DNA of 64,000 nt, from the NCBI RefSeq assembly GCF_039541115.1, contig NZ_BAABFP010000004.1, forward strand, positions 360,005-424,004. Reading direction: 5' to 3'. The notes under the pieces were generated by a model, which saw only the letters and a list, made by a program, of their open reading frames with translations, was not told the DNA's origin and did not search any database. Numbering within the stretch: position 1 is the first letter of the stretch; every line of letters begins with the position of its first letter. Position numbers and translations under genes: made by a program. Source of the DNA: Angustibacter luteus (GTDB taxonomy: Bacteria; Actinomycetota; Actinomycetes; Actinomycetales; Angustibacteraceae). Positions 21,674 through 24,754 of the stretch are shown here, one piece after another.

Positions 21674-22093
21674 TCAGCCGGTCGTGGGCAGGCCCGCGGC
21701 GCGCCAGGCCAGGAAGCCGCCCTCGACGTCCGTGGCCCGGTGCAGCCCGAGCTCGACCAGCGCTGCCGCAGCCAGGCTGGACGTGTACCCCTCCGAGCAC
21801 AGCACGAGGATGCGGACGTCGTACCCGACCGCCTGCGGCAGGCGCGCGTCGCTGGTGGGGTCCAGGCGCCACTCGAGCACGTTCCGCTCGATGACGAGGG
21901 CGCCGGGCACCTCACCCTCGATCAGCCGCTGGGCGGCCGGCCGGATGTCGACCAGCAGGGCGCCGTCCACGTGCTCGGCGGCGGCCTGCGCCGGCGTGAC
22001 CCGCCGGATCTGGGTGCGGGCGCGGGCCAGCACCTGGTCGATCGTGAGGGCGGTGGGCGGCCCCGGTGGCCGGGTGGCGACCGCGGTGCTCAT
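21674..22093 (-). CDS. Rhodanese-like sulfurtransferase
   Basis: 139 residues from ATG 22093, overlapping the cysteine dioxygenase stop by ATGA. One rhodanese domain with LLVDIRP at residues 46-52 and active-site Cys99 in LVLCSEGYTSS. The coupling to cysteine dioxygenase and the cysteine leader peptide indicates sulfane-sulfur handling during cysteine breakdown. Confidence 0.88.
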   Translation of the reverse strand: MSTAVATRPPGPPTALTIDQVLARARTQIRRVTPAQAAAEHVDGALLVDIRPAAQRLIEGEVPGALVIERNVLEWRLDPTSDARLPQAVGYDVRILVLCSEGYTSSLAAAALVELGLHRATDVEGGFLAWRAAGLPTTG

Positions 22094-22587
22094 GCCTGGA
22101 GCTCGGGCTCGCTCGACCAGACCGTGCGGGACTCGACCAACGAGCCCTGCTCGTCGATGTCGTAGAAGCGCATGCGCTCCAGGCGCGGGCCGTAGGCGTG
22201 GATGCTGACGGCCGGCTTGACCAGGTCGTTGCGCACGTCGTGCACGATGCCCGGCTCGACGACCCGGACCGCGGGAGCGTGCAGGGTGGTCGACCAGACG
22301 CCGAGGACGTCGTCCGCGCGCACCTCGGTGAGGGCGCCCTCGACGACTGCGAAGGCCGCGGAGGAGTCGCCGTGGTCGTGCAGGTCGGTGGCCTGCGACG
22401 GCAGCCAGGTGAGCAGCCACACGTCGACGCCCTCCGGACCGGGCAGGCGGGCCCAGTAGCGCTCGGCGGTGAACTTGATCTTCGGTCGCCAGAGGTGGGG
22501 CTGGCTGGCGACGCGGCGGACGACCAGGGCGAGGTCGTGCGTCGTCCACTCGGACTGAGCGGGACGAGGGGTGGCGATGAGAGTCAT
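22090..22587 (-). CDS. Cysteine dioxygenase family protein
   Basis: 165 residues from ATG 22587. A cupin with iron ligands His70 and His72 in TDLHDHGDSS and a third histidine in EPGIVHDVRN. Oxidises cysteine (or a related thiol) to its sulfinic acid. The next gene is a rhodanese, overlapping by four bases. Upstream lies a short cysteine-containing leader ORF, so expression may respond to cysteine supply. Confidence 0.88.
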   Translation of the reverse strand: MTLIATPRPAQSEWTTHDLALVVRRVASQPHLWRPKIKFTAERYWARLPGPEGVDVWLLTWLPSQATDLHDHGDSSAAFAVVEGALTEVRADDVLGVWSTTLHAPAVRVVEPGIVHDVRNDLVKPAVSIHAYGPRLERMRFYDIDEQGSLVESRTVWSSEPELQA

Positions 22588-22644
22588 GGTGAGGCTTTCG
22601 AGGCGGCCGCCTCGCATCGTGCGGGCGGCGGGGGCTGGGGGTCG

Positions 22645-22740
22645 TCAGGCGAGAGCGAGACGACACGCAGCACTGCACAGCCGCATGAGGTCGACGTGCC
22701 GACGCACGACCAGACCTCGCTGCTGCTGTACCTCAGCCAT
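22645..22740 (-). CDS. Cysteine-type leader peptide
   Basis: A 31-residue ORF from ATG 22740 to TGA 22645-22647, ending 57 bp before the cysteine dioxygenase start. The second half reads RRHVDLMRLCSAACR and LALA. This RRHVDL-x-R-x-x-S-x-x-CR pattern matches the short putative leader peptides found upstream of sulfur-metabolism genes in actinobacteria. Two cysteine codons (tgc, tgt) near the end would stall ribosomes when Cys-tRNA is scarce. Sequence match strong from memory; the attenuation mechanism is inferred. Confidence 0.75.
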   Translation of the reverse strand: MAEVQQQRGLVVRRHVDLMRLCSAACRLALA

Positions 22741-22813
22741 GAGACCGAGAGTGACGGCGGTCCAGGCCTGTGTCAACACTTGGGCACCCGCTGTCCACCA
22801 TCCGGACAGCCGT

Positions 22814-24754
22814 CTACGGGAGGGGGTGGAGGAGCGGGGCGGCGAGCCAGGCGTCCGGGATGCCGAAGCCGTCGACGAGGTCGAGGGCGTCCGGACGGAG
22901 CTGAGCGCAGGCGGTGTTGACCAGGCCGGTCACCGTGCGGCTGCGCGCCGCGGTCAGCCGGCCGTGCTCGACGTACCAGGCGCGCTCCTGCTCGAGCCCG
23001 TGCAGCAGGTGCACCGTGCACAGCCGGTCGAGCAGCGCGCGGGCGGCGGGGTCGGGGCACTCGTCGACGCCGCGGGCGAACGACTCCGCCACCACCCGCT
23101 CGACGTGCGCGCGGGCGGCCAGCAGCACGTGATCCTGGGCGTCGTTGAACACGGCGAACAGGTCGGCACCCGGCTTGGCGGCGGCGCGCATCCGGCGGGC
23201 GAGGCCGCCCAGCACGTGCTGCTCGCGATCGGCCAGCAGCCGCAGCAGCACCGCCCGGTCGAGCAGGTTGCCCTCCTCCGGACGGCGCGGCCGGGCGTCG
23301 GCCAGGCGCATGCCCCAGGTGCGGGCCGACGTCCGCTCCGCGACGGTCGAGGCGACCTGCCGGGCCACGAACCGCAACGTGCCCAACGCGTCCAGGTCGC
23401 CGAAGGCGTCGCGGTAGCTGGTCAGCAGACCCTTCGCGACGAGCTGAAGCAGCACTACGTTGTCGCCCTCGAACGTGGTGAACACGTCCGTGTCCGCCTT
23501 GAGCGAGGGCAGCCGGTTCTCCGCCAGGTAGCCCGCCCCGCCGCAGGCCTCGCGGCACTCCTGGATCGTGCGGGTCGCGTGCCAGGTGCTCATCACCTTC
23601 ACCCCCGCGGCCAGCGCCTCGAGCTCGCGCTGACGGTGCTCGTCCGGCGGGGTGTCGGACAGCAGCGCGGACTGCACGTCGTGCATCAGCGACACGAGGT
23701 CGTTCTGCGCGTAGGCGAGGGCGTAGGACGTCGCCAGCGCGGGCAGCAGGCGACGCTGGTGGGTGCGGTAGTCGAGCAGGCAGACCTCGTCGTCCGATCC
23801 CGGCGCGGCGAACTGGGTGCGGACGTCGGCGTACCGGATCGCGATGGACAGCGCCGTGCGCGTCGCCGCGCCCGCACCGCCGGCGACACTGATCCGACCG
23901 CGCACCAACGTGCCGAGCATCGTGAAGAACCGTCGGGTCGGGTTCTCGATCGGGCTCGTGTAGGAGCCGTCGGGGCCGATGTCGCCGTACCGGTTGAGCA
24001 GGTTGGTGCGCGGCACCCGCACCTGGTCGAAGGTGAGCCGGCCGTTGTCGACGCCGTTCAAGCCCATCTTGGGCCCGCAGTCCTCGATGGTGATGCCGGG
24101 CAGGGCGGCGCCGGTGTCGTCGCGCAACGGCACCAGCACACCGTGCACGCCGTGCCGCAGCGGCTCGTCCGGCGTCCCGGTGACGAGCTGGGCGAACACG
24201 ACTGCCATCCGGGCGTCCCGGGCTGCACCGCCGATGTAGTCCTTGCGCGCGCTCGCGGTCGGCGTGTGCACGACGATCTCGTCGGACGTCGGGTCGTACG
24301 TCGCGGTGGTGCCCAGGGACTGCACGTCGCTGCCGTGACCGGTCTCGGTCATCGCGAAACAGCCGGGCAGCTCGAGCGAGATGATCTGTGGCAGAACGGT
24401 CTCGTGGTGTCGCGTGGTGCCGAGGTTGGTCACGGCGCCGCCGAACAGCCCCCAGTGGACGCCGGCCTTGACCAGCAGTGACAGGTCCGTGTGGCCGAGC
24501 ATCTCGAACGCGGTCACCGAGGCGCCGATGTCGTCGCTCCCACCTGCGACAGCGGGGAACCCGGCGCGGGCGTACTGGCTGCCGGCCAGCATCCGCATCT
24601 GCTCGTTGACCCGGTCGCGCTGCGCCTCGATGCTCAGCGACGGGTCCGGCAGCAGGAGCTCGGCGTCGAACTCCTTGCGGGTGTGCTCGCGCACGTGGGC
24701 CCACCGGCCACCGAGGCTCGCGCGCAGGGCGGTGACGAGGTCGGTGCTGGTCAT
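22814..24754 (-). CDS. fadE5: FadE5-like acyl-CoA dehydrogenase/oxidase
   Basis: 646 residues. FAD enzyme for the first step of fatty acid beta-oxidation. Flavin-site motifs CFAMTETGHGSD and KDYIGGAARDA, and the C-terminal TFEGDNVVLLQLVAK and CGGAGYL, match the long acyl-CoA oxidase-like dehydrogenases. Overlaps its TetR gene by ATGA. Divergent fadA2, fabG4 and htdX lie beyond, which mirrors the mycobacterial fadE5-fadA2-fabG4-htdX region; the symbol rests on this synteny. Ends with a Pro/Leu-rich tail. Confidence 0.8.
   Translation of the reverse strand: MTSTDLVTALRASLGGRWAHVREHTRKEFDAELLLPDPSLSIEAQRDRVNEQMRMLAGSQYARAGFPAVAGGSDDIGASVTAFEMLGHTDLSLLVKAGVHWGLFGGAVTNLGTTRHHETVLPQIISLELPGCFAMTETGHGSDVQSLGTTATYDPTSDEIVVHTPTASARKDYIGGAARDARMAVVFAQLVTGTPDEPLRHGVHGVLVPLRDDTGAALPGITIEDCGPKMGLNGVDNGRLTFDQVRVPRTNLLNRYGDIGPDGSYTSPIENPTRRFFTMLGTLVRGRISVAGGAGAATRTALSIAIRYADVRTQFAAPGSDDEVCLLDYRTHQRRLLPALATSYALAYAQNDLVSLMHDVQSALLSDTPPDEHRQRELEALAAGVKVMSTWHATRTIQECREACGGAGYLAENRLPSLKADTDVFTTFEGDNVVLLQLVAKGLLTSYRDAFGDLDALGTLRFVARQVASTVAERTSARTWGMRLADARPRRPEEGNLLDRAVLLRLLADREQHVLGGLARRMRAAAKPGADLFAVFNDAQDHVLLAARAHVERVVAESFARGVDECPDPAARALLDRLCTVHLLHGLEQERAWYVEHGRLTAARSRTVTGLVNTACAQLRPDALDLVDGFGIPDAWLAAPLLHPLP

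Follow-up and report, generated by a model that had tools for sequence, protein, structure and literature searches.

Attenuator leaders are known for operons that make or import the amino acid they count, and the locus studied here raises the question of what such a leader does on the gene for an enzyme that would destroy cysteine. In the window, i.e., the whole 64-kb stretch of DNA that was analysed, an upstream ORF (uORF) of 31 codons lies on the minus strand at 22645..22740, with its start ATG at 22740, its stop TGA at 22647-22645 and the product MAEVQQQRGLVVRRHVDLMRLCSAACRLALA. The first Cys codon (TGC, 22675..22677, minus strand) is found 10 codons ahead of the stop and the second (TGT, 22663..22665, minus strand) 6 codons ahead, and a 57-nt spacer with a C-rich beginning (22588..22644, minus strand) leads from the leader stop to the ATG of cdo at 22587. 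The preliminary description, with two Cys codons near the stop 57 bp before cdo, was therefore right about the geometry. The cdo gene (22090..22587, minus strand) belongs to the CDO_I family; its product scores 54.4 bits with PF05995, above the Pfam cut-off of 23 bits, and has the HxH metal site in the form HDH. The in-frame alternative ATG at 22617 is a less likely start, because the homologue in the sister species G001 shares its first 15 bases with the start at 22587 and lies equally far, 57 nt, behind its leader. The cdo stop is overlapped (ATGA) by the start of a gene for a rhodanese-domain protein (21674..22093, minus strand; PF00581, 41.3 bits).

The uORF is situated in a 226-nt intergenic gap (22813-22588) flanked by genes of the same strand, the upstream one, acyl-CoA oxidase-like, ending at 22814. 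TTGACA at 22771..22776 (minus strand), 30 nt ahead of the uORF ATG, is a candidate -35 hexamer kept in G001, and CACTCT at 22748..22753 (minus strand), 7 nt ahead, may serve as a weak -10, where G001 has CACGAT; the spacing of the two to the ATG predicts a leaderless uORF transcript. The spacer contains a perfect 16-nt palindrome (22599-22614) adjoining GAAAG (22595-22599), the presumed weak Shine-Dalgarno of cdo. Within 22400-23000, a generic promoter scan found no sigma-70 consensus and a terminator scan no intrinsic-terminator-like site, and an Rfam scan of 22000-23000 gave one match, far under the gathering score. With its profile matches, its motif, which occurs once in the six frames of the window, and its core kept in G001, the uORF is confirmed as a genuine Cys-codon leader ORF, and it shows a recognised feature of Cys-responsive attenuators, Cys codons close to the stop of a short ORF ahead of a sulphur gene.

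The peptide had been matched to a recurring actinobacterial leader pattern. Such a family is indeed described, in the models NF042934 ("putative leader peptide", cis_reg_atten) and NF042936 ("Ms4527A family Cys-rich leader peptide"), and both share with the window leader the RRHVDLxRxxSAxC core, but the window copy stays under both curated cut-offs, with 23.1 bits against 27 for NF042934 and 30.1 bits (E 2.7e-7) against 45 for NF042936. In the 4.16-Mb genome it nevertheless ranks first for NF042936 (E 7.3e-6; three matches at E up to 10). NF042934 gives the G001 leader 26.4 bits, a Frankiales MAG leader 38.6 and a cdo leader of the high-scoring f37 group (f37hi) 39.0, the last two being above the cut-off, as are the f37hi cdo leaders in 12 of 12 genomes. 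A search of the window genome with NF042934 at E up to 10 yielded 12 matches in all, weak chance-like ones included. A second leader among them (33 bits, above the cut-off) precedes a gene for an SsuE-type FMN reductase (TIGR03567, above the cut-off), after which come genes for an ABC transporter ATPase and a luciferase-like monooxygenase; a third and weaker one (20.1 bits, under the cut-off) precedes a nitrite/sulphite reductase (NIR_SIR). NIR_SIR proteins can reduce nitrite or sulphite, and we read this one as a sulphite reductase because of the leader in front of it. Further leaders in G001 stand ahead of cysD and, by recognition, the reductase. The 12 f37hi genomes have 6-13 NF042934 matches each at E up to 0.05, and in the 30 loci fetched other leaders precede, by recognition, a MoaD-like gene together with a cysteine-synthase-like one, an FMN-reductase-like gene and others. 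At L062 (G184) and L070 (G079), RHxDL leaders stand ahead of a membrane protein that resembles a TSUP/TauE-type permease by recognition only.

G001 was the only other species of the genus searched. Its leader, MAQVQPTELVVRRHVDLMRLCSAACRYPAA, is followed by the same 57 nt and a CDO-like ORF. In the 17-codon core VVRRHVDLMRLCSAACR the two species differ at four bases and all four differences are synonymous, which has a probability of about 0.005 given that 26.8% of random changes are synonymous. Conservation of the peptide, on which the preliminary description had let its claim depend, is thus seen as a core with synonymous changes only. With 22.6 bits the CDO-like ORF falls just under the Pfam cut-off of 23, a search of the G001 genome with PF05995 listed no match, and no rhodanese was found in the translations between this ORF and the next; the gene is either decaying or has changed its function. 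In the same ORF (L056 587-1054), behind the conserved leader, HDD replaces the HDH metal motif.

Whether Cys-ending uORFs precede other cdo genes was surveyed by scanning the 500 nt that precede the domain match at 128 CDO-family loci (29 order-level, 9 named, 30 top-scoring and 60 further class-level). At class level 194 genomes had a match, from which 90 places (30 given and 60 fetched) and later 16 more were used; G077, G072, G093 and G075 are outside the locus set, and L024, cut by the contig end, was excluded from the uORF counts. Criteria A and B accepted ORFs 8-60 codons long that had HxD[LFMIV] and then Cys near the end, or at least three Cys in the last nine residues. By these rules, which like the split of a YADELRP-like subfamily were partly post hoc (the looser ones were written after some loci had been seen), uORFs occur at 29 of 30 f37hi loci, at 24 of the 79 remaining cdo loci and at none of the 19 YADELRP-like loci, leaving 55 of the 79 without one; in the same sets of genomes, crude gene starts gave 2 of 172, and random windows from 20 stretches gave 14 of 1560. 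The difference between 24/79 and 2/172 has a Fisher value of 1e-11, or 5e-7 without the low-scoring f37 loci, which supply 10 of the 24 (10 of the 11 such loci are positive). At least one positive locus was found in 11 of 21 families (by handle). In a later set (f22 and f38), uORFs whose last nine residues include three or more Cys occur at 7 of 16 loci, and an NF042934 match is listed beside cdo in none of the 16. The survey of other cdo genes proposed in the preliminary description thus supports a recurrence of such uORFs (24/79 and 29/30 versus 2/172).

The distribution is patchy. Under criteria A and B, the sampled loci of f14 (5), f35 (12), f36 (6) and f47 (4) had none, six Dactylosporangium and Planosporangium loci had no such uORF, and among named plasmid records one of six did. 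A strict motif scan of L002-L039 returned nothing, and a further criterion C (two Cys in the last eight residues) was set aside because as many as 16 of 172 control genes also passed it. The peptide sequences before the different cdo genes are in part unrelated and are of two sorts, an RHxDL type (VTDTCVRLWRRVHMDLVRYAGCVCRPSC, MANRASLLVGRLHVDLCRVASAACPA and others) and a poly-Cys type ending in, e.g., RCCCCCSSC, MCCRCCR, MRCCCCA or CECCRP. TTGAC lies 26-34 nt ahead of the leader start in 34 of 55 cdo leaders, whereas 160 of 46920 random positions have it. Of the 34, f37 supplies 33; among the 16 leader starts of other groups, only the window's own has TTGAC at this leaderless spacing. Several loci have unusual arrangements. 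Read by eye, L004, L005 and L007 (G107, G019, G163) have tandem uORFs upstream of cdo, the first poly-Cys (end MRCCCCA or MRCRCCA) and the second with an RIHLDL motif, further Cys codons and a frame that heads towards the cdo start; one of these uORFs was scanned and matched no NCBIfam model. In L154 (G412), near base 650, a second RHxDL leader on the minus strand, pointing away from cdo, stands ahead of an ORF recognised as FMN-reductase-like, which places two leaders in one short locus. In L003 (G065), from about base 1260, the frame of an RHxDL leader extends beyond the cdo start, so that the two overlap and there is no spacer.

In a tree of 103 CDO rows, with f37hi represented by its first six rows only, the leader label changes at least 11 times, seven of the changes being forced by well supported branches; the label was assigned by hand to 35 of the 103 rows and is wider than criteria A and B. 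The well supported group of the window CDO has seven rows, L001, L031, L006, L011 and L015 labelled and L135 and L139 unlabelled. L006 and L011 have just two Cys near the stop, a level reached by the controls in 16 of 172 cases. Leaders within this clade differ in sequence form. In the alignment, from which (as from the tree) L093 and L115 were excluded, the window CDO has an Arg, at a position that we take to be rat Arg60, where all 19 rows of the subfamily with the YADELRP-like tail have Ser or Cys. The 19 YADELRP-like loci may encode ergothioneine dioxygenases, which our literature search neither supported nor denied. This subfamily resembles the solved structure 8qfl, which the PDB names cysteine dioxygenase. 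The Arg versus Ser/Cys split only hints at a link between leader and substrate, since the Arg is also common in CDO rows without a uORF and absent from 8 of the 58 rows labelled with a leader.

Taken together, the uORF is very probably a Cys-responsive leader of cdo. We put a probability of roughly 0.5 on the whole of our best reading, that it is a leader of the Cys-attenuator type at which a stall caused by scarcity of Cys-tRNA raises cdo. The uORF would probably be translated from the 5' end of a cdo-rhodanese transcript, and the speed of the ribosome at its Cys codons would read out the Cys-tRNA supply and set the expression of cdo. A ribosome that stalls when Cys-tRNA is short would keep the downstream start site open, so that cdo would be raised along with the sulphur-acquisition genes, perhaps making sulphite or sulphane sulphur from thiols. 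Induction under cysteine limitation is favoured because of the other members of the Cys-leader family and of the masking of the Shine-Dalgarno in f37hi; as the likeliest single direction for the window locus, we would place it somewhat under even odds. It would be physiologically odd for an enzyme that oxidises cysteine to be induced by its scarcity, and this speaks against our reading.

The f37hi loci (genus g91) provide the clearest view of how such a leader could work. We take g91 as Streptomyces because Streptomyces sp. BHT-5-2 (NZ_CP081497.1) has a CDO 79% identical, whose leader is VTDHSSRFWRRVHLDLLRYAGCMCRPSC, with the same CAGGACGGT ahead of the start. The Shine-Dalgarno is CAGGACGG in 29 f37hi loci (CAGGAACGG in one), and its complement is formed by the last codons of the leader, with CCG in 23, TCC in all 29 and either TGC or TGT in 25 of these loci. 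When folded, these 29 loci, for which the Shine-Dalgarno motif was itself the entry condition, show it unpaired with a mean of only 0.07 and paired with the last leader codons with a mean of 0.84. RNAalifold recovered the same helix (CCGUCCUG-CAGGACGG), with compensatory changes at none of its 33 predicted pairs. A 31-nt mask gave the highest access when placed about -24 to +12 of the stop, which predicts that the start site is open when a ribosome is near the end of the leader. With the footprint edge at +12, i.e., 12 nt past the start of the A site, the Shine-Dalgarno is unpaired to 0.16, 0.26 and 0.31 for ribosomes at the three Cys codons (the third is present in 25 of 29) and to 0.29 for one at the stop. 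Ribosomes at the stop and at the Cys codons thus open the site to the same extent, and the helix therefore does not fix the direction; that the opening follows cysteine scarcity is what we infer. The modelled architecture can accommodate the usual direction of control.

The same leader could also work with inverted output, switching cdo on when cysteine is plentiful: ribosomes that reach the stop would cover the masking sequence (or exclude Rho), and those parked at the first Cys codon would leave the mask free. This would suit a catabolic gene. The opening by a ribosome at the stop in f37hi fits it, as does a +9 footprint at the first Cys codon, with which the Shine-Dalgarno is hardly more accessible than in the free RNA (0.098 versus 0.071; medians 0.007 and 0.004), but with the edge at +12 or +15 a first-Cys stall already opens these loci (0.16, 0.22). 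At the window, modelled stalls at the two Cys codons reduce the unpaired fraction of the ribosome-binding region from 0.71 in the free RNA to 0.52 and 0.57 and that of the cdo AUG from 0.43 to 0.34 and 0.31. These values lean weakly against induction by limitation at this locus and for that reason hold down our confidence in the best reading. Since the genes after the other leaders of the family, where recognised, mostly serve acquisition or synthesis, we regard the inverted output as unlikely. Still more doubtful is its extension to unrelated Cys-codon uORFs placed repeatedly before cdo with the output inverted there, by which one sensor would govern both arms of cysteine homeostasis with no regulator protein.

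Folding at the other loci is equally mixed. In G001 the ribosome-binding region is unpaired to 0.64, and the AUG is paired (0.05) and not opened by stalls. At both the window and G001 loci, the folding leaves the ribosome-binding region unpaired to the Cys-to-stop part of the leader, and masking of the Shine-Dalgarno by the leader was absent from the folds of the window, G001 and ssuE loci and of the cysO leaders in the f37hi genomes. At the nitrite/sulphite reductase of the window genome, the ribosome-binding region pairs with the spacer and the AUG, unpaired to 0.08 in the free RNA, reaches 0.80 when a ribosome stalls at the last Cys codon and 0.75 when it is at the stop; this was set aside as evidence since the G001 reductase reverses (0.90 to 0.11). 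The switch at the window could be Rho-dependent or translational, the former option being suggested by the C-rich beginning of the spacer. Of the original proposal that the uORF controls the operon, the conserved Cys-codon leader before cdo stands, and the scan and the folding revealed neither a terminator-like site nor a resolved switch; regulation of cdo by the uORF is thus inferred. Its idea of a use opposite to that in biosynthesis holds for the kind of gene, oxidation and not assimilation, and is not supported for the direction, as f37hi can work in the usual one and the window folding leans only slightly to the other.

A different mechanism would be nascent-peptide arrest, in which the RRHVDLxR motif itself halts the ribosome and may respond to a different signal such as redox state or sulphide. 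The motif exceeds the needs of a Cys counter, and in 28 distinct leaders its third codon positions vary most (0.32 versus 0.17 and 0.10) and the His is invariant; the rows were, however, chosen by a peptide pattern that fixes the Asp and nearly fixes the His, so this conservation is largely built in. Moreover, the poly-Cys uORFs of many cdo loci lack the motif, and in f37hi the motif codons lie in a predicted strong hairpin, for which a constraint on the RNA is the alternative, so that we consider the arrest very unlikely. Least probable of all is an ordinary small ORF without regulatory effect, or the leftover leader of another operon after rearrangement: the scores of the window copy under both cut-offs, the 55 of 79 loci without a uORF and the leader that G001 retains ahead of a degenerate cdo would agree with it, but the recurrence relative to the controls, the synonymous-only core and the varied leader forms in the window's cdo clade argue against it.

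If our reading of induction by Cys-tRNA scarcity holds, the oxidation of cysteine would be part of a starvation response, e.g., with sulphite breaking disulphides and freeing cysteine; otherwise the sensor can be wired both ways. The closest known systems are the polycysteine leaderless sORFs of mycobacteria (Canestrari et al. 2020), at which stalled ribosomes reportedly free the ribosome-binding site on cysteine limitation. Like the window uORF, they are short and placed before a sulphur operon, with Cys codons near the end, and they are apparently leaderless, as is predicted for the window uORF; they are cited for cysteine biosynthesis, whereas the window gene putatively oxidises cysteine and the folding resolves no switch there.

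In their accessible sections, PMC4633059 describes mycobacterial Cys-codon uORFs ahead of cysA2 and Cys-metabolic genes, PMC13236596 cites translation attenuation of cysteine biosynthesis and PMC9094748 sORFs predicted to be Cys-responsive. Among the matches listed in our literature search, which mostly covered papers outside subscription, no title or abstract dealt with a leader before cdo, and the papers containing both "cysteine dioxygenase" and "leader peptide" included none on bacterial cdo control by title. The available part of PMC7181669 reports that growth on feather raises cdo1 and cdo2 of Streptomyces SCUT-3 50.2- and 8.3-fold and is accompanied by a release of sulphite into the medium. 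These genes are of the same enzyme family by name and that part mentions no leader; the induction is compatible with both directions because growth on feather does not separate cysteine scarcity from excess. Of the eight S. lividans leaders in the accessible text of PMC8079986, none is called Cys-dependent. In Table 4 of that paper, the metNIQ leader MSTTSDRTPATEATTTPGARCMCRRMCAF is termed methionine-dependent, yet it has three Cys near its end and, judged by its peptide, may be a Cys leader.

PMC1262725 presents, in its accessible part, candidate Cys leaders before cys operons and a LEU element before leuA in Actinobacteria. As at the window, these leaders have runs of Cys codons near the stop and no terminators; they are named for cys and cbs operons, and the term cysteine dioxygenase does not occur in the paper. 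The kind of leader is thus already known, the NCBI models naming such peptides, and its placement before cdo is the new part.
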